From contig NZ_CAMFKW010000006.1 in assembly GCF_945957345.1 (NCBI RefSeq), forward strand, positions 1 through 64,000: 64,000 bases of DNA, read 5' to 3'. Numbering within the stretch: the stretch's first letter is position 1; every line of letters begins with the position of its first letter. Of this stretch, positions 31,142 to 47,816 are shown piece by piece. Origin of the DNA: an uncultured Allobosea sp. (lineage in GTDB: Bacteria > Pseudomonadota > Alphaproteobacteria > Rhizobiales > Beijerinckiaceae). The notes under the pieces are model-generated. The model made no database searches, was not told the origin of the DNA, and saw nothing but the letters and a program-made list of their open reading frames with translations. Both the position numbers and the translations under genes were made by a program.

Positions 31142-32147
31142 AGACGTCACGGGTCAGGTCTTTCGGATCGGGGTCCGGGCAGGCGCGGGCGAATTCGACG
31201 GCGGCGTCGATGTCGCGCTGGGCGTCCTCTTCGAGCTTCATCAGCGCGGCCGCATCGAAGCGGTCATGCGCCTTGAGCTCGTCCTCGAGCCGCCGGATCG
31301 GGTCCTGGTTGCGCCATTCCTCGATCTCCTCCTTGGAGCGGTAGAGATTGCGGTCGCTCTTGGAATGGCCGCGCCAGCGATAGGTCTTGCACTCGATCAG
31401 CGAGGGACCCTCGCCGGAGCGGGCGCGGGCGATCGCGACCTTCGCCACGGCGGCGACGCCGGCGAGATCGTTGCCGTCGAGGCAATGGCCGGGCATGCCA
31501 TAGGCCGCCGCGCGGTCGGCGACGTTCGGCACCGCCATGGCGCGGCCGATATCCATCGACATGCCGTATTTGTTGTTCTCGCAAACGAAGACGACCGGCA
31601 GCTTCCAGATCGAGGCCATGTTGAGCGCCTCGTGGAAGGCGCCTTCGTTCGAGGCGCCGTCGCCGAAGAAGACCATGCAGACGCGGCCGTTCTTCTGCGC
31701 CTTGATGCTCATCCCGACGCCGACCGCGATCGGCAGGCCGCCGCCGACGATGCCGTTGGCGCCGAGATTGCCGCCCTCGACATCGGCGATATGCATCGAG
31801 CCGCCGCGACCCTTGCAGTAGCCGGTCTCCTTGCCGAAGAACTCGGCGAACATCAGCTTGGGCTCTGCGCCGCGGGCGATGCAGTGGCCATGGCCGCGAT
31901 GGGTCGAGAGGATGTAATCGTGGGCTTCGAGCGGCAGCGTCGTGCCGACGGCGCTGGCTTCCTGCCCGATCGAGAGATGCATCGTGCCGTGGATCAGGCC
32001 GCGCATGTAGCTCGCCTCGGCGGCCTCCTCGAACTTGCGGATCAGGTGCATGCGGGTCAGCGCCTGCGCCATTGTCGCGTCGTCCAGCGCAGCGAGTTCC
32101 GGCCGCTGGTTCGGCTTCTGGTCAGCGCTCATGGGTTCAGCGCTCAT
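31131..32147 (-). CDS. E1 alpha subunit, thiamine-diphosphate dehydrogenase complex
   Basis: A 338-residue protein with the thiamine-diphosphate motif [18 protein letters not shown] and the following [36 protein letters not shown] is typical of E1alpha/AcoA proteins. Met 32147 overlaps the DRL-like gene by ATGA; Met 32132 is an alternative. The frame stays open far upstream, but that part is only the other frame of the DRL-like gene. Confidence 0.92.
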
Positions 32148-33505
32148 TCTTGGGCTCCGGAGGTCAGCGCGGCGATCATTGCGTCCTGGGCGCGGCGCAC
32201 CTCGACGATCTTCAGCCGTTCGTCGGGCGTGGCGTCGGCCAGCGTGATGAGTTCGCCCTTGCGGACGGGCCGGGTCATGGTCGCGCCCTGGGCGAGGCCG
32301 ATCGGCAGCGCCTTGCGCGCCTGCGCATCGGCGCGGGAGAGAGCGAAGCCGCGATAGCCGTATTCGCCGATGGCATCGAGCGTCTCGCCGATGGCGAGAT
32401 CGCGCTTGGCGACGCAGCCGACCTCGGAAGTCGGCACCGGCAGCGGGCGCATATGGCTCTGGTTGAAGATCACGGCGGCAGCGGCCGAGAGCGGCACTTC
32501 CAGGCTCGTCAGGTGATAGGGCCGGAAGAAGGAATAGTACGGGCCGGGGCCGAGATGCAGGTCGCTCATCCGCTCGCGGACGCGGGGATGGCGCATCTCG
32601 GCGACGGCGAAGACGCCGGGCGCGACGCCCTTTGCCACCGAGAAATCGACCACCCCCTTTTGCGAGAGCAGGCCGCCCTCTTCCTGCGGGCAGAAATAGT
32701 TCTGCAACTCGTCCTTGGGCGCGGCCGGGCCGTGCATGCCCGGGATGTCGGGCACGAAGCCGCAGGCATTGGCGATGGCGACCATCTCGACCATCGTCTT
32801 CGAGCCGTCGACGAACTCGACGAGCATGCGGGGGTTCATGTTCCGGCGGGTAGCTTCCTCGACATAGTCGGCCGGGACGGCGTCGATGCGGAACGGGTTG
32901 TTCTTGCCCTTGCCGGCAGCGACGACGGGATAACCCATGGCGCGGACGAAATTGATCAGTTCCATTGCGGCGGCCGGCTCGTCGCCGGCACCGAGCGTGT
33001 AGACGACGCCGGCCTTGGCGGCCTCGACCGCGAGATAGGAGCCGATGGTGATGTCGGCCTCGACATTCATCATCACGATATGCTTGCGCGCGGCGATCGC
33101 GGTCAGCGCGACGCGCGAGCCGGCCTCGGGATTGCCGGTGGCGTCGATGATGACGTCGACATGGGACGAGCGGCAGATCAGGTCGAGCGAGGTCGTTGCG
33201 GCGATGCGCCCCTTGCGGCGGGCGGTGTCCAGCCCAGCCTCGTCGGTGACGTTGTCGACCTCGCCCTTTCGCCCTGCGAGTGCGGCGGCCTCCGCGACGC
33301 GGTCCGGCGCGATATCGGCGACGGCGGCGATCTCGATGCCGGTCATCTGGGAGATCTGGACGACGATGTCGGTGCCCATCTGGCCGGCGCCGATCAGGCC
33401 GACGCGGACCGGCTTGCCTGCCTTGCCACGCAGTTCGAGCGCTTCGGCCAATGACAGGCCGGCAGCGGGCGCCGCCAAAGGCGGTTGCGTCAGGATCGCG
33501 GCCAT
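32144..33505 (-). CDS. DXR-like (DRL) / homoserine-dehydrogenase-like oxidoreductase with SAF domain
   Basis: A 453-residue NAD(P)-dependent protein. A Rossmann motif [14 protein letters not shown] is near residue 35, with [15 protein letters not shown] and [19 protein letters not shown] following. The C-terminal quarter (from about 360, [25 protein letters not shown]) looks like a SAF domain. From memory this matches the DRL family first described in Brucella, where one member replaces DXR of isoprenoid synthesis; other members have other substrates. As first gene of an operon with a ketol-cleaving complex and a SorC regulator, a catabolic role on a branched sugar derivative is inferred. Confidence 0.72.
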
Positions 33506-33527
33506 CTTTGTGGCATCTCCCTAAGGA

Positions 33528-33589
33528 CATATGTTCTTTTGGTGGAACAAAAGATCGGATCTTTCGTTCTGTCAAGCGCGCATATGTTC
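33528..33589. promoter_or_regulatory. Candidate SorC operator region: direct repeats flanking an inverted repeat
   Basis: CATATGTTC occurs at 33528-33536 and again at 33581-33589, 53 bases apart (about five helical turns). Between them GAACAAAAGAT (33545-33555) and ATCTTTCGTTC (33559-33569) form an inverted repeat with one mismatch. The region lies between the divergent DRL-like and SorC genes. Confidence 0.6.
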
Positions 33590-33659
33590 AAGTCGGTTGC
33601 TTTTCCCGCTTCGATCCTGCGATGCTGCGAAAGAGGTTGTGCAGCTTGGCGGCGGAACG

Positions 33660-34676
33660 TTGGAAGACATCATCGAGCCCGGACATTTTCACCGCGAGGA
33701 ACCGATCGCAGACGCCAAGGTCCGCGCGGCATGGCTCTATTATGTCGAGGGGTTGACGCAGGAGCAGATCGCCGAGGTGCTGGGCCTCAGCCGAATCAAG
33801 GTGGTGCGGATGCTGGCTGCGGCCCGCGCCGAGGGGCTGGTCAAGATTCGGATCGACGCGCGGTCCGCCCGGCAGGCCGGGCTGGAGCGCGGGCTTGTCA
33901 CCCGGTTCGATCTCGACGAGGCGGTGGTGGTGCCCGCGACCCGCGATCCCGCCCATGTCTCGGCGATGGTCGGCTATGCGGCGGGACTGTGGCTCTCCGA
34001 CAAGCTGACCGACGGGACGGCGCTGGCCGTCGGCTGGGGCCAGACGCTGCACCAGGCCCTACGCGGGATCCAGCCGCGCCAGCTGGAAAAGATGTCGGTG
34101 GTATCGCTGCTCGGCGGCCTGACCCATTCGCGCAGTATCAATCCCTCGGCGGTGGCGCGACGGGTTGCCGACATGTTCGGCGCCGATTGCTTCCAGCTCA
34201 CCGCGCCGGTCTTTGTGTCCGATGCTGCACTCCGGGACGCGCTTTGGCGGGAGCCGCCGTTGCGCGAGCTGCTGGAGCGCGCGCGCGCCGCAGATATCGC
34301 GCTGGTCAGCGTCGGCGACCTTGTCGCCGACTCGACCCTGTTCCGGGAGGGGCTGCTACCCCAATCCGATCTGACGTCGCTGCAGAATGCCGGCGCCGTC
34401 GGCGATCTGGTCTGCCACTTCATCGACGCCGAGGGCGAACTGGTCGATCATCCCGTCAATCGACGGATCATGGCCGTGAGTCCCGCCGATCTCAAGGGGA
34501 TCGCTCTGGTCGCGATTGCGGCGGGCGGTGCTCACAAGGAACAGGCGATCCGCGCCGCCCTGCTGGCGAGCAACGCCAGGGTTCTGATCACGGATGAAAG
34601 CGCTGCCGAAGCCCTCCTGGCCGAGAGCGCGTTCGCGCGCGGCGGGGAACGGCGGCTGCAAGCACAGGGGAGTTAG
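33660..34676 (+). CDS. SorC-family transcriptional regulator
   Basis: A 338-residue regulator if read from TTG 33660. The N-terminal helix-turn-helix (YYVEGLTQEQIAEVLGLSRIKVVRML) is followed by a sugar-binding effector domain (GLVTRFDLDEAVVVPA, GTALAVGWGQTLHQAL, LLGGLTHSRSINPSAVARRVA). SorC proteins respond to sugar phosphates and control sugar catabolic operons. No ATG suits the N-terminus: GTG 33639 and TTG 33660 are both possible, and the frame open from 33531 would include the operator. It is divergent from the DRL-E1-E2 operon and likely controls it. Confidence 0.82.
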   Translation: MEDIIEPGHFHREEPIADAKVRAAWLYYVEGLTQEQIAEVLGLSRIKVVRMLAAARAEGLVKIRIDARSARQAGLERGLVTRFDLDEAVVVPATRDPAHVSAMVGYAAGLWLSDKLTDGTALAVGWGQTLHQALRGIQPRQLEKMSVVSLLGGLTHSRSINPSAVARRVADMFGADCFQLTAPVFVSDAALRDALWREPPLRELLERARAADIALVSVGDLVADSTLFREGLLPQSDLTSLQNAGAVGDLVCHFIDAEGELVDHPVNRRIMAVSPADLKGIALVAIAAGGAHKEQAIRAALLASNARVLITDESAAEALLAESAFARGGERRLQAQGS

Positions 34677-42672: not shown

Positions 42673-44118
42673 ATGACCATCGCAAACTGGAATCCCGCCA
42701 AGATCACGCTGGTCGTGGATCTCGACGATGCGCTGATCCGGTCGGATTCGCTCTTGGAGACGTTCTGGTCGGCCTGTTCGGCGAGATGGTACACGCCCCT
42801 GGTCGCCGCCTCGGCGCTCATGCGAGGCCCGCTGGCGCTGAAGCAGCGGCTCGCGGAGATGTCCAATCTCGATCCGGCCAGCCTTCCCTATGACGAGGAG
42901 GTGCTCGGCATCATCCGGCGCTGGCGGGAGCATGGCGGCCGCATCGCGCTGGTGACGGCTGCCATCCAGGCGACGGCCGACCAGGTCGCGGCCCATCTCG
43001 GTCTGTTCGACGAGGTTCATGGCTCCGGCAACGGGGTCAACCTCAAAGGCAGCGACAAGGATCGCTTCCTGCGCGAGACATTCGGCGCGGCCGGCTACAC
43101 CTGCATCGGCGATACGACGGCTGGCCTGTCGAGCTGGACGGCCACTGCACAGGCGGTGTCGCTCGATCCGGGCCAGGCTGCCGCACGAGCGCGGTTTGAC
43201 GGGGCCGAGCAACCGGCGGTGCATCGTGCAGCTGCAACGGCGAAAACGCGCGATTACCTGCGCGCCTTGCGCCCGCACCAGTGGCTCAAGAACCTTCTCG
43301 TCTTCGTGCCGATGCTGGCGGCCCATCAGCTGACACTGCCGATGATGCTGCAATCCCTGCTGGCATTCGTGGCCTTCAGCCTGGTGGCGTCGAGCACCTA
43401 TGTGCTGAACGATCTGCTCGACCTCGCCGCCGACCGGGCGCATCCGCGCAAACGGCGCCGGCCCTTCGCGTCGGGCGCGGTCAAGATCAGTCACGGCACC
43501 TGGATGGTGCCTGTGCTCGGGTTGCTCGGCGGTGCCGTCGCCCTGATGAGCAGCCCGGCCCTGTTTGCCCTGCTGCTCGGCTACTCGGTGCTGACGACGC
43601 TCTATTCGCTTTGGCTGAAGCGGATGGTCGTGATCGATATCTGCCTGCTCGCGGTGCTTTACACCATGCGAATCCTGGCCGGTTCCGTCGCGACGGGCAT
43701 TCCGGCATCCGTGTGGCTGCTCGCGTTCTCCACCTTCTTCTTCTTCTCCCTTGCCAGTATCAAACGTCAGGCGGAATTGGTCGACGGGATCGCGTCAGAA
43801 ACGGTGCAGGCCCGAGGCCGAGGCTATCGCACCGACGATTTGCCGATCGTGAGCAACATGGCTGTGTCCTCCGGCCTTGTCTCGGTTCTGGTTCTGGCGC
43901 TCTACGCTAATTCGGAGCCGGTTCGGCTGCTCTATAACACGTATGAGTTTCTGTGGGGCGTGTGCCTGGTGCTGCTGTTCTGGAACAGCCGCATCGCGAT
44001 CCTCACGCATCGCGGGCAAATGCACGACGATCCCCTGGTTTTCGCAGCCTATGACCGCGTCAGTTATGGCTGCGCCGCCGTCATCGCAGCGCTCGCCCTG
44101 GCGGGCACCTGGTGGTGA
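42673..44118 (+). CDS. HAD-UbiA fusion, polyprenyl-phosphate phosphoribosyltransferase-like
   Basis: A 481-residue two-part protein. Residues 1-170 form a HAD-type hydrolase (TLVVDLDDALIRSD with DxD, a lysine in NLKGSDKDRF, and CIGDTTAG). From about 195 a UbiA prenyltransferase domain with several membrane helices follows (RPHQWLKNLLVF, NDLLDLAADRAHPRKRRRP). This UbiA subgroup includes mycobacterial Rv3806c and rhizobial NoeC, which move phosphoribose onto polyprenyl phosphate. The HAD part could then remove the 5-phosphate. It leads a five-gene cassette with DprE1/DprE2-like enzymes, which supports the call. Confidence 0.85.
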   Translation: MTIANWNPAKITLVVDLDDALIRSDSLLETFWSACSARWYTPLVAASALMRGPLALKQRLAEMSNLDPASLPYDEEVLGIIRRWREHGGRIALVTAAIQATADQVAAHLGLFDEVHGSGNGVNLKGSDKDRFLRETFGAAGYTCIGDTTAGLSSWTATAQAVSLDPGQAAARARFDGAEQPAVHRAAATAKTRDYLRALRPHQWLKNLLVFVPMLAAHQLTLPMMLQSLLAFVAFSLVASSTYVLNDLLDLAADRAHPRKRRRPFASGAVKISHGTWMVPVLGLLGGAVALMSSPALFALLLGYSVLTTLYSLWLKRMVVIDICLLAVLYTMRILAGSVATGIPASVWLLAFSTFFFFSLASIKRQAELVDGIASETVQARGRGYRTDDLPIVSNMAVSSGLVSVLVLALYANSEPVRLLYNTYEFLWGVCLVLLFWNSRIAILTHRGQMHDDPLVFAAYDRVSYGCAAVIAALALAGTWW

Positions 44119-44546
44119 GCAGCGTCGCGTTCGTTTTCCGCTACGTCGCCTTCGCGCTCGTGGCGACCGCAGGCAATCTCGGCACGCAACGCCTGGTGCT
44201 GCGGTGGGGCGACGAGGCCTTCGTCTACTACCTCGCACTGCTGGCAGGAACGCTGGTGGGGCTCGTGCTGAAGTATTGCCTCGATAAGCGCTGGATTTTC
44301 GGCGATGTGACGAGCGGAATTGCGGAGCACGGCCGGAAGTTCAGCCTCTACACGCTGATGGGAGTAGCGACCACCGCGATCTTCTGGGGAACCGAGACCT
44401 TGTTCTGGCTGGCCTGGAACGCCGAGGCCGCACGCGAGATCGGCGCCCTCATCGGCCTCTCCGTCGGCTATCTCGTGAAGTACCATCTCGATCGCCGCTA
44501 TGTGTTCGTCAGGGGACAGTCGGCGATGGACGGCGCGGCATGCTGA
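44115..44546 (+). CDS. GtrA-family small membrane protein, candidate flippase
   Basis: A 143-residue protein with four membrane helices and the GtrA motifs (RYVAFALVATAGNLGTQRLVL, KYCLDKRWIF, KYHLDRRYVF). GtrA proteins are thought to move polyprenyl-phosphate sugars across the membrane; Rv3789 plays such a part, or an anchoring part, next to DprE1/DprE2 in mycobacteria. GTG 44115 overlaps the stop of the UbiA gene; GTG 44112 is an alternative. Confidence 0.87.
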   Translation: MSSVAFVFRYVAFALVATAGNLGTQRLVLRWGDEAFVYYLALLAGTLVGLVLKYCLDKRWIFGDVTSGIAEHGRKFSLYTLMGVATTAIFWGTETLFWLAWNAEAAREIGALIGLSVGYLVKYHLDRRYVFVRGQSAMDGAAC

Positions 44547-45862
44547 TCTCCGGCTGGGGGCGCTACCCGCTGGAGGAGTGTGTTCTCCAGCAGCCACGTT
44601 CAGAAACCGACCTCCTCGCCCTTCTTGGACAGGGGCCGTTGATCGCCCGTGGCAATGGCCGGGGCTATGGCGACTGCGCCCAGAATGCGGCCTGCACCGT
44701 GGATATGCGGCGCTTCAACCGCATGCTGACCTTCGATCCCGCCACGGGCTGCCTGGCGGCAGAGGCGGGGGTGCTGTTATCCGATGTCATCGCCAGCTTC
44801 CTGCCGCGAGGCTGGTTCCCCACGGTCACGCCAGGAACGAAATACGTGACGGTCGGCGGAATGGTCGCGGCCGATGTCCATGGCAAGAACCACCATCGCG
44901 ACGGCTCGTTCGGCGCCTTCGTCGATTGGCTGGACGTTCTGGGTGCGGATGGCCAGGTTCGGCGATGCAGCCGCGATCAAAATGCCGAACTCTTCGCCTG
45001 GACGATCGGCGGCATGGGGCTGACCGGCGTGATCCTGCGCGCGGCGTTCCGGCTGCGCCGCGTGGAGAGCGCCTGGATCAGGCAGACAATCCTCCCGTCG
45101 CCCAACCTCGAGACCGCCATGCGGATATTCGAGGACCATGCGGCAGCGAGCTATTCGGTGGCCTGGATCGACTGCCTTGCGGGCGGTTCTGCATTGGGGC
45201 GCTCGATCATCGCGCTCGGCGAACACGCCATGGCCGCGGAACTGCCGGCGCCCTCGCGCACACACCCTTACGACGTACCGGCCAAAAAGAAGCTTCGCAT
45301 TCCCTTCGACATGCCTGCGGTGCTGATGAACAGCTGGACCGTCCGCGCCTTCAATGCCGCGTACTACCATCGCGAGGCCGGCAAGCGAGGCGAGAGACTG
45401 GTCGATTGGGACAGCTATTTCTATCCGCTCGACGCTCTCGCCGACTGGAATCGCATCTATGGGCGCCCGGGCTTTCTGCAGTTCCAGTGTGTGCTCCCGC
45501 TCGCCGGCGCGCATCGCGGCCTCACGGCTCTGCTGCGGGTGATCGCCGAAAGCGGGCAGGGTTCCTTCCTGGCCGTTCTCAAGCGTCTGGGGGGAGGGCA
45601 GGGCGGCGCGTTCTCTTTCCCGCTGGAAGGTTACACGCTGGCACTGGATTTTCCGGTGTCCAGCCGCTCGCTCGCTCTCATGGAGCGGCTGGACGAGATC
45701 GTTCTCGCCCATGGAGGGCGGTTCTACCTGGCGAAGGACAGCCGGCTCAGCGCGCGGACATTGCGCGCCTCCGACGACCGCGTCGCGCAACTTGTCGAGA
45801 TGCGGCGTGGCCTTGCTGCCACGTCGTTCCGGTCGAGCCAATCAGAGAGACTGCAGCTATGA
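44540..45862 (+). CDS. DprE1-like FAD-dependent decaprenylphosphoryl-ribose 2'-oxidase
   Basis: A 440-residue VAO-family flavoprotein. It has RGNGRGYGDCAQN and TPGTKYVTVGGMVAADVHGKNHH, very close to the DprE1 signature, and FYLAKDSR with Lys399 matching Lys418 of the mycobacterial enzyme. The position of mycobacterial Cys387 is Ala368 here (GYTLALDFP), 31 residues before the lysine in both. With the SDR downstream it should turn polyprenylphosphoryl ribose into the arabinose form through a keto intermediate. It overlaps gtrA by 7 bases and the SDR by 4. Confidence 0.9.
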   Translation: MLISGWGRYPLEECVLQQPRSETDLLALLGQGPLIARGNGRGYGDCAQNAACTVDMRRFNRMLTFDPATGCLAAEAGVLLSDVIASFLPRGWFPTVTPGTKYVTVGGMVAADVHGKNHHRDGSFGAFVDWLDVLGADGQVRRCSRDQNAELFAWTIGGMGLTGVILRAAFRLRRVESAWIRQTILPSPNLETAMRIFEDHAAASYSVAWIDCLAGGSALGRSIIALGEHAMAAELPAPSRTHPYDVPAKKKLRIPFDMPAVLMNSWTVRAFNAAYYHREAGKRGERLVDWDSYFYPLDALADWNRIYGRPGFLQFQCVLPLAGAHRGLTALLRVIAESGQGSFLAVLKRLGGGQGGAFSFPLEGYTLALDFPVSSRSLALMERLDEIVLAHGGRFYLAKDSRLSARTLRASDDRVAQLVEMRRGLAATSFRSSQSERLQL

Positions 45863-46596
45863 CTTCCGAACCCGTGCTTGTCGTCGGGGGCCGCTCCGAT
45901 ATCGGATTGGCCATCGCCCACCGCTTCGCTGCCGCGGGCCACGCCGTGCAGCTCGCGGCGCGCAATGTCACGACGCTTGCGGTCGACAAGGCCGATATCG
46001 AACTGCGCCATGGCGTGGCCGTGACGCTCTGCGAACTGGACATTCTGGCGACGGAATCCCTTCCGGGTTTCGTGGACCAGCTCGCGCCCCTGCCGGCGGT
46101 CGCGGTCTGCGTCGTCGGCCTGCTCGGAGACCAGGCTGCGGCGGAAACCGACCTGAAGGCTGCGGCGCTGGTCATGCGCAGCAATTACGAGGGGCCGGCG
46201 TTGCTGACAGGCTTGCTCGCAAACCGGTTCGCGAAGCGCGGACACGGCACGATCGTCGGCATCAGCTCCGTCGCGGGCGATCGCGGACGGGCGCGCAACT
46301 ACGTCTATGGTTCGGCCAAGGCGGGATACACTGCGTTCCTCTCCGGCTTGCGCAACCGGTTGGCAAAAACTCCGGTCCACGTCATGACGGTCCTGCCGGG
46401 CTTTGTGCGCACGCGCATGACGGAAGGGATGGCCCTTCCGCCGCGCCTTGTCGCTGCGCCGGAGGACGTGGCAGAGGCGATTTTCCGGGGCGTCGCGAAA
46501 CGCAAGGACGTCCTCTACACGAAGCCCGTATGGCGGCTCGTCATGGCGGTGATCCGCGCTCTTCCCGAGAGCGTCTTCAAGAGGACAAACCTGTGA
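45859..46596 (+). CDS. DprE2-like short-chain dehydrogenase
   Basis: A 245-residue SDR with an N-terminal NAD(P) motif (VLVVGGRSDIGLAIAHRFAAAG) and catalytic residues Ser (GISSVAGDRG), Tyr and Lys (YVYGSAKAGY). It matches DprE2, which reduces the 2'-keto intermediate to decaprenylphosphoryl arabinose. The C-terminus (RLVMAVIRALPESVFKRTNL) has a hydrophobic helix as in DprE2. ATG 45859 overlaps the oxidase stop. Confidence 0.88.
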   Translation: MTSEPVLVVGGRSDIGLAIAHRFAAAGHAVQLAARNVTTLAVDKADIELRHGVAVTLCELDILATESLPGFVDQLAPLPAVAVCVVGLLGDQAAAETDLKAAALVMRSNYEGPALLTGLLANRFAKRGHGTIVGISSVAGDRGRARNYVYGSAKAGYTAFLSGLRNRLAKTPVHVMTVLPGFVRTRMTEGMALPPRLVAAPEDVAEAIFRGVAKRKDVLYTKPVWRLVMAVIRALPESVFKRTNL

Positions 46597-47816
46597 GCGA
46601 CGCGACACGGATGTCGCAACTCGTCACAAGCCGCCTGATGCTCAAGGCCATTGTCGCGGTTTGCGCGTTGCTGGCGCTCGTGTCGGCAGTCCTGTTTCAG
46701 GCGCCGGGCCTGCTGGGGCGGGACAAGGCGGTCACGGATTTCGACGCCTTCTACATTGCCGGCACCATGGCGGGGCAAGGCAGGGCGGCCCAGTCATACC
46801 GAGCGGCCGAAATGATGGCGGAGCAGCGGGCGATCGACGGCAAAAACAACTTCATGCCCTGGACCTATCCGCCGCCCTATACCCTTTTCATGCAGGGCCT
46901 GGCACGACTTCCAATCGGCGCCGCCTATCTGCTGTTCATCACGCTGAGCTTCCTCCTTTATCTGGCGGTGCTCAGGCGGATCGCCGGTGCATACTTGCCG
47001 GGCGTGCTCATCGCGATCGCGCCGGCGCTGCTCCTCACGGTCCGGATCGGACAGAACGGCTTTCTCACGGGGGGGCTGGTCGGCTGGTTCCTGTGGGCAT
47101 TCATCCGCCAGCGTGCCGTTGCGGGCGTGCCGCTCGGGCTGATGGTCCTGAAGCCGCATCTGGCCTTCGGAATCGCTTTGCTCGCGCTGCTGGGGCGGCG
47201 CTGGAAGGCCATGGCGATCGCCGCCGGCATCGTCGTTGCGGCATTGCTGGCTGCCACGGCTTCATTCGGCTGGGGGATCTGGGCGGCCTTCCTGGGAGGG
47301 GTGCGGGAAGCTGGCGAGTTTCTGGCCGAGGGATATTATCCGCTGTTCCGGATGACCTCGGTTTATGCCGGCGTTCGGGCGGCGGGCGGATCGGCACCCC
47401 TTGCACTGGCCTTTCACGCGGCCGGTGCCCTGGCTGCCGCTGGATTCTTCCTCTACGGATGGTGGCGCGGCTGCGAAACGCGCTTTCTGGCGGCTATCGC
47501 CTGCGTCGCTTCGTTGTTCATCAGCCCTTACAGCTACGATTACGACCTGATGATATTCGGCGTTGCCCTGGCCTTCGTGTTGCCCGATCTGGTGGAGCGT
47601 GCTCGACCGCACGAGCTGGCGGGGATGCTGTTGTTGTCCTGGCTGGTCACCGGATATGGTCTTGCGATGAATGTGTTGAATGATGTTGCCAATAGCGGCA
47701 TTGCAACGCTCAAGTCACCGAGCGACTTCTTTTCCGTGTCCGGGATTCTGTTTCTTATATTGGTTGCCTTGGCCTACATGACCTTGCGTCGTCCGCTCGT
47801 GTCGGCGCAGGGCTAA
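46593..47816 (+). CDS. GT87/DUF2029-type polyprenyl-phosphate-sugar glycosyltransferase
   Basis: A 407-residue membrane protein with about ten helices and GT87 landmarks: DFDAFYIAG in the first outer loop, PWTYPPPYTLF, LMVLKPHLAFG and FISPYSYDYDLMIF. The Asp in DFD is the likely catalytic base. These C-type enzymes use polyprenyl-phosphate sugars outside the membrane. As last gene of the cassette it is the candidate arabinofuranosyltransferase; the acceptor is not known. GTG 46593 overlaps the SDR stop and has GAGGA 7 bases upstream; ATG 46611 is an alternative. Confidence 0.82.
   Translation: MSDATRMSQLVTSRLMLKAIVAVCALLALVSAVLFQAPGLLGRDKAVTDFDAFYIAGTMAGQGRAAQSYRAAEMMAEQRAIDGKNNFMPWTYPPPYTLFMQGLARLPIGAAYLLFITLSFLLYLAVLRRIAGAYLPGVLIAIAPALLLTVRIGQNGFLTGGLVGWFLWAFIRQRAVAGVPLGLMVLKPHLAFGIALLALLGRRWKAMAIAAGIVVAALLAATASFGWGIWAAFLGGVREAGEFLAEGYYPLFRMTSVYAGVRAAGGSAPLALAFHAAGALAAAGFFLYGWWRGCETRFLAAIACVASLFISPYSYDYDLMIFGVALAFVLPDLVERARPHELAGMLLLSWLVTGYGLAMNVLNDVANSGIATLKSPSDFFSVSGILFLILVALAYMTLRRPLVSAQG

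Follow-up and report, generated by a model that had tools for sequence, protein, structure and literature searches.

A predicted D-arabinofuranose donor cassette with a GT87 glycosyltransferase gene in an uncultured Allobosea species

Results

Five overlapping genes encode a predicted pentofuranosylation pathway

The subject of this study is a five-gene cassette in a 64,000-nucleotide stretch of DNA (the window; contig NZ_CAMFKW010000006.1, positions 1–64,000) from an uncultured Allobosea sp. of the family Beijerinckiaceae. This cassette is likely to encode a self-contained extracytoplasmic pathway for pentofuranosylation with D-arabinofuranose. In the list of open reading frames of the window, five occupy positions 42673–47816 of the forward strand, exactly the span that a preliminary description of this DNA had assigned to five overlapping genes, and Pfam and structure matches bear out the families it named. 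The genes encode a HAD-UbiA protein (gene A, 42673–44118, 481 amino acids), a GtrA protein (gene B, 44112–44546, GTG start, 144 amino acids), a DprE1-like FAD oxidase (gene C, 44540–45862, 440 amino acids), a DprE2-like short-chain reductase (SDR; gene D, 45859–46596, 245 amino acids) and a GT-C membrane glycosyltransferase of family GT87, a predicted pentofuranosyltransferase (gene E, 46593–47816, GTG start, 407 amino acids). All five frames are open, and all five proteins match Pfam families above the gathering score. Successive genes overlap by 7, 7, 4, and 4 nucleotides; from these overlaps only, we infer a single transcript for A–E.

In the proposed pathway, gene A would convert phosphoribosyl pyrophosphate to a polyprenyl-phosphoryl-ribofuranose, from which its HAD domain, perhaps together with another phosphatase, would remove the 5′-phosphate. 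Gene C would oxidize C2 and gene D would reduce it back with inversion, giving polyprenyl-phosphoryl-arabinofuranose. Gene B would move this lipid donor to the periplasmic face, and gene E would transfer arabinofuranose (Araf) to a glycan, lipid, or protein of the envelope. For related systems, the epimerization has been shown in mycobacteria, and a fifth gene, noeP, is reported to be needed (PMC5080398). That the sugar is D-arabinose, that B flips the donor, and that E is an Araf transferase are steps we infer. The pathway is proposed on the strength of the gene family matches, the conserved active sites of A, C, and D, a gene order shared with the noe operon and recurring in 50 of 80 loci, the proven activity of a HAD-UbiA synthase, and concordant trees.

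Gene A is matched by the Pfam models UbiA (77.8 bits) and HAD (31.5 bits) and by NCBIfam PRK08238 (572 bits; cut-off 351), and the closest solved structure by sequence for its UbiA half is the mycobacterial decaprenylphosphoryl-5-phosphoribose (DPPR) synthase (8j8j; E 1e-28). It contains the UbiA N-D-x-x-D-x-x-x-D motif and the Arg/Glu of the cytoplasmic loops; N246, D247, D250, D254, R365, and E368 show no variation across 14 aligned rows, and this numbering is that given for the active site of Citrobacter ORF15 (N247/D248/D251/D255/R366/E369; PMC11127046) minus one. We therefore treat gene A as a predicted polyprenyl-phosphate phosphoribosyltransferase with an N-terminal 5′-phosphatase domain (PRP-PPPRS); the HAD domain, at 42703–43167 on the forward strand (approximately residues 11–165), is partly degenerate. 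Gene B matches Pfam GtrA_DPMS_TM (36.8 bits) and NCBIfam gtrA_1 (161 bits; cut-off 50), and was aligned in a set of nine sequences. It takes the position of NoeN and Rv3789, and is predicted to be a flippase (or anchor) for the lipid-linked pentose.

The oxidase encoded by gene C (Pfam FAD_binding_4, 72.4 bits) has DprE1 as its closest solved structure (E 2e-80, residues 3–440 aligned), the next family being cytokinin dehydrogenase at 2e-10. The DprE1 model NF053785 scores 406 bits and the next model 36 bits. Residues H114, K116, Q314, Q316, K348, and K399 are invariant in 15 sequences and align with positions 132, 134, 334, 336, 367, and 418 of solved DprE1, which we take to line the substrate site. 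Gene D (Pfam adh_short, 100.5 bits) has NCBIfam PRK07102 as its best model in that collection (340 bits) and DprE2 as its closest solved structure (E 8e-31; next 3e-19). The Ser-Tyr-Lys of SDR enzymes is present, with S136/S137, Y150, and K154 invariant in 13 sequences.

The donor gene order recurs, and GT87 is the unusual component

A scan of 84,980 species genomes with the oxidase returned at least 584 relatives, and the best 80 loci were examined for neighbors. Genes A, B, and D all lie near C in 55 of these loci; the order A-B-C-D recurs on one strand in 50, so the gene order is beyond chance. Contig ends break five of the 25 incomplete loci. A gene A relative stands near C in 68 of the 80 loci, with the alignment reaching the HAD part in 56. 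An E-like GT87 is near C in six: Novosphingobium (L071), Erythrobacter (L074), Solirhodobacter (L076), Paenirhodobacter (L092), a metagenome-assembled genome (L072), and Bradyrhizobium altum (L143), in which the GT87 lies on the strand opposite to the oxidase. It is the GT87 in the position of the transferase that makes the cassette unusual. At E 1e-60 or better the oxidase finds a match in 44 of 385 genomes of the class, and at E 1e-30 in 34 of 149 genomes of the family, the window's own being included in both counts. Among 72,556 plasmid records, 75 have matches, and in 64 the match spans 80% or more of the oxidase.

The same five-gene order (UbiA, GtrA, DprE1-like, DprE2-like, membrane transferase) is that of the noeCNHOP operon described in Agrobacterium IRBG74, where deletion of noeP is reported to abolish and deletion of noeN to reduce Nod-factor arabinosylation (PMC5080398). 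Nod-linked plasmids of Sinorhizobium alkalisoli and Agrobacterium pusense carry such a set, with a 401-amino acid membrane protein in fifth position and nodABC near. Mapped by operon order, NoeP would be this 401-amino acid protein and NoeN the GtrA protein; the noeN position is held by a GtrA family gene at L036:7582–8004 and L034:9582–10004. The source for the deletions offers the guess that NoeN is a phosphatase (PMC5080398); judged by its sequence family, it is more likely a lipid-sugar transporter. A third nod-type cassette is seen in Microvirga sesbaniae (L083:8287–13268), with NodA in the same genome and a NoeP relative 68–72% identical to those of Agrobacterium and Sinorhizobium.

Gene E belongs to a cassette-linked GT87 clade

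Gene E matches Pfam GT87 (PF09594) with 99.8 bits, above the gathering score. A search by sequence found no solved structure for it at E values up to 1; its predicted structure has a PimE-like GT-C fold, with 14% identity to PimE in the structural alignment. An Asp-Phe-Asp motif (D49-F50-D51; 46737–46745, forward strand) stands at the start of a helix spanning residues 49–61, and in the predicted structure D49 is just past the first long transmembrane helix (14–36). The catalytic Asp of GT-C enzymes is often found directly after the first transmembrane helix, according to PMC11127046, and D49 is a candidate for this residue in the model. Among 33 GT87 proteins, F50 is invariant and D49 is kept in at least 90%. 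Within the cassette clade, 10 of 11 rows share D51, the exception being the B. altum protein, which has Ala; none of the 23 other GT87 rows of the alignment has it.

In a tree of the 33 GT87 proteins, gene E falls in a set of 11 that stands apart from the other 22 (Shimodaira–Hasegawa-like approximate likelihood ratio test [SH-aLRT] 100). Ten of the 11 adjoin a C/D cassette; nine of these ten were recruited by the oxidase scan, and the remaining one belongs to the window. The eleventh is in a genome (G506) whose DprE1-like gene is a megabase away. A GT87 search made independently of gene C in the 385 class genomes gave 29 loci besides the window's, of which 23 were placed in the tree, and the G506 protein is the only one of these within the gene E clade. 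Across the 385 genomes, 33 have an E-like GT87 and 44 have a DprE1-like gene; the two occur together in nine, where 3.8 would be expected from the products.

Tandem GT87 pairs follow the SDR gene at L072:4682–6813, L076:12201–14640, and L092:12072–14578, the second copy of L072 running past the contig end. The first copy at L076 is without the first Asp of the Asp-Phe-Asp motif, that is, without the candidate catalytic residue, which suggests a two-enzyme or accessory role for the pairs.

Findings that weigh against the pathway, and other explanations

A number of findings count against the proposed pathway. In the HAD domain of gene A, motif I reads DLDDA, Ala replacing what is Thr in ten and Ser in one of the other 11 HAD-bearing rows, and motif IV reads GDTTAG, with a terminal Gly at a position that is Asp in all 11, the Novosphingobium ortholog included. 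The domain keeps D16 and D18 of motif I, the motif II Thr, and the first Asp of motif IV; the second residue of motif IV is Asp here and in only six of the 11 other rows. With two conserved motif residues replaced, dephosphorylation may be weak. The pathway could run even with an eroded phosphatase, because some product was still formed by Citrobacter ORF15 with a mutated HAD nucleophile, as reported in PMC11127046, and because deletion of noeN merely reduced arabinosylation (PMC5080398). The nod-linked UbiA proteins of L034, L036, and L083 are without a HAD domain.

Genes C and D both fall below the NCBI equivalog cut-offs, for DprE1 (406 versus 500 bits) and for DprE2 (NF053786; 193 versus 250 bits), and are DprE-like enzymes rather than certified equivalogs. 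The cut-offs may have been set on actinobacterial enzymes; the six of six related genomes tested are also below that of NF053785, and the Corynebacterium control is above it. Low scores would fit a C/D pair that forms some other product from lipid-linked ribose, or a cassette whose added pentose is ribose or xylose, and a related system is reported to make xylofuranose through a different SDR (PMC11127046). We consider such chemistry very unlikely: no other family comes close to DprE1 as a match for C, and among solved structures D matches DprE2 best; the substrate-site residues are conserved; and the noe operon (noeCNHOP or noeCHOP) of Azorhizobium caulinodans and Agrobacterium sp. IRBG74, whose proteins are 57–60% (C) and 60% (D) identical to those of the window, arabinosylates Nod factors. 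A further point against the pathway is that the oxidase tree described below was built without actinobacterial DprE1; a Rhodococcus plasmid match was not used in it because it spans just 36% of the query, at 37% identity.

Other findings bear on the role of gene E as the Araf transferase. The only solved GT87 among the matches listed is PimE, a mannosyltransferase, and the family is described as one of alpha-1,2-mannosyltransferases (PMC8522060). In the class, the majority of GT87 matches have no DprE1-like gene next to them; the two are neighbors in two of the nine genomes that have both, the window's and G205, and the G205 protein (L051) lies outside the gene E clade. All this would suit an arrangement in which the donor is made as proposed, gene E moves another polyprenyl-phosphate sugar, such as mannose, and the Araf transferase is encoded elsewhere in the genome. 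This we regard as unlikely, given that gene E overlaps the SDR gene by 4 nucleotides, is the only GT87 of its genome, and occupies the same slot as NoeP, and that members of its clade stand beside cassettes, including the tandem pairs after the SDR gene. The mycobacterial Araf transferase AftC is also filed in GT87.

Gene E also has no detectable sequence similarity to NoeP (no BLAST similarity; hhalign probability 0.1) or to a 500-amino acid family found beside Paracoccus and Rhizobium cassettes (hhalign probability 0.3), and we rejected it as a relative of either; the profiles held three NoeP sequences and eight of the 500-amino acid family, and distant kinship through the GT-C fold is possible. 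None of ten scanned flanking proteins of the window, and none of nine at the Novosphingobium locus (L071), is glycan-related, and the acceptor is therefore not revealed by the neighborhood, as the preliminary description had anticipated. It had likewise reported no nod genes nearby, and no NodA match was found in the 5.2 Mb assembly, with both positive controls detected. Nod-factor arabinosylation was accordingly rejected as the function of the cassette: with no NodA in the assembly and a gene E unlike NoeP, the cassette falls outside the noe operon family.

The fifth gene appears to be exchangeable

We scanned 20 membrane proteins near cassettes, hand-picked from 132, against Pfam. Three score above a Pfam cut-off (two GT87 and one AI-2E transporter) and one is a weak PMT_2 match; the other 16 have no Pfam match at E 0.05. 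One of the two GT87 proteins, encoded next to the Paracoccus cassette (L038:14712–15872), was not detected by the search with gene E and represents a second, distinct GT87 type. Genes of this type also adjoin cassettes of Microvirga, Rhizobium, and one family member (L141:13764–14951, L149:15257–16498, and L164:5170–6939), in each case on the opposite strand.

The donor quartet A–D seems to be a widely shared plug-in whose transferase can be exchanged. We see an even chance that two things hold together: that the GT87 clade of gene E consists of dedicated polyprenyl-phosphate-D-arabinofuranose transferases outside Actinomycetota, and that the quartet is a mobile plug-in for varied GT-C enzymes, the majority of the scanned ones belonging to no Pfam family. 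If so, the quartet marks a pool of unrecognized pentofuranosyltransferases and arabinosylated surface molecules in alphaproteobacteria.

The cassette was probably acquired horizontally

The nearest oxidase to that of the window is from Novosphingobium (70% identity). In an oxidase tree of 101 rows, the window pairs with Novosphingobium (SH-aLRT 97) and then with Erythrobacter (99), both of which have a GT87 relative of gene E, and the GT87 tree pairs the window with the same Novosphingobium locus (SH-aLRT 98, compared with 97 in the oxidase tree). Oxidases on contigs titled Nocardioides, Actinobacteria, and Thermosynechococcus (L088, L093, and L095) are placed inside the alphaproteobacterial clade, which may reflect transfer, contamination, or mislabeled assemblies.

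A DprE1-like gene is found at E 1e-30 in 32 of 40 genus-mates, all 42–46% identical to the window oxidase, and the five placed in the tree group together in a clade of their own, distant from it. In the five loci fetched (L158, L159, L160, L166, and L167) a UbiA gene immediately precedes the DprE1-like gene, and a tblastn search of 19 kb turned up no DprE2-like SDR. The window genome lacks a second copy of this genus type; it has one full-length DprE1-like oxidase, its four other matches being partial (at most 61 bits).

Directly 3′ of the cassette is a four-gene amino-acid ATP-binding cassette (ABC) transporter block that is kept in the seven genus-mates fetched (83–96% protein identity), none of which has the cassette beside it. 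For the M24 peptidase gene on the 5′ side, no match at 1e-60 turned up among the 40 genus-mates. Because the conserved 3′ block lacks the cassette in genus-mates and the 5′ gene has no match there, the cassette lies on the border of an accessory region and has probably been acquired horizontally. Its guanine-plus-cytosine (GC) content is 64.7%, about 1.5 SD below the average of equally long stretches of the window (mean 66.5%, SD 1.2), which lends weak backing to this origin. Elsewhere in the window, at 32144–34676, an oxidoreductase gene with a DRL catalytic domain is divergent to a gene for a regulator with a sugar-binding domain; the pair, upstream of an oligopeptide-type ABC transporter, resembles a sugar or polyol catabolic locus.

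A recently acquired island could also be decaying or silent and have no present function. The absence of the cassette from the genus-mates examined, the HAD motif losses, the GC offset, and a consensus scan that found no sigma-70-like promoter for the cassette are in keeping with that, and terminator-like sites are no more frequent at the cassette than in shuffled sequence. A consensus promoter scan is of limited value at a genomic GC content of 66%, and the five open frames and the invariant catalytic residues of A (UbiA), C, and D make a functionless island highly improbable.

Discussion

The kind of pathway that we propose is known, and the GT87 as last gene is what is unusual. The stepwise chemistry predicted for the cassette is that of the mycobacterial decaprenylphosphoryl-arabinose pathway (Rv3806c, Rv3807c, DprE1, DprE2, Rv3789, and Emb/Aft), but in the window the HAD domain is fused and there is no separate phosphatase gene, a single GT87 transferase is present, and the host is an alphaproteobacterium. 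The preliminary description had drawn this parallel, and DprE1, DprE2, and DPPR synthase as the closest solved structures agree with it, as does the noeCNHOP order with the parallel it drew to the noe genes. Parts of it need adjustment. A lipid-linked donor is retained, with undecaprenyl phosphate, expected for Gram-negatives (PMC11127046), more likely than decaprenyl phosphate. The first enzyme is a UbiA synthase as claimed, of the HAD-fused Citrobacter type with partly eroded HAD motifs rather than of the plain Rv3806c type, and DprE1 and DprE2 are the nearest solved homologs of C and D, which fall short of NCBI equivalog status.

Compared with the noe operon, the window has a HAD domain on its UbiA protein, which the nod-linked proteins of the three loci named above lack, and a GT87 in place of NoeP. 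Also of a related kind are the three-component extracytoplasmic pentofuranose systems of Kelly et al. (2024), exemplified by Citrobacter youngae ORF15/ORF14/ORF12, in which synthase and phosphatase activity of the HAD-UbiA protein ORF15 is reported as proven (PMC11127046). Like the window, these systems combine a candidate flippase and a GT-C enzyme with a HAD-UbiA synthase, whose active-site residues are the same. Citrobacter has a MATE flippase and a GT136, whereas the window has GtrA, GT87, and the DprE1/E2-like pair, and no O-antigen genes are among the scanned flanks of the window. Candidate systems for Araf-containing glycans are said in that article to hold DprE1/E2 homologs (PMC11127046); in the window, synthase, flippase candidate, GT-C enzyme, and DprE1/E2 homologs are all in one cluster. 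PimE differs from gene E in that the gene E clade is tied to arabinose-donor cassettes, and the expected donor of gene E is a pentofuranose. Among the titles and abstracts listed by searches of open-licence articles in PMC (unread full texts, supplements, and subscription papers being outside this scope), none tied GT87 to such a cassette in proteobacteria.

D-arabinofuranose is usually regarded as a sugar of the mycobacterial wall. The GT87 clade of gene E, so far unassigned, offers a testable transferase family, and the cassette offers non-pathogenic DprE1/DprE2-like enzymes for mechanistic work. A donor-plus-transferase cassette that apparently moves between alphaproteobacterial families would make lipid-linked arabinosylation a widespread, exchangeable surface modification.

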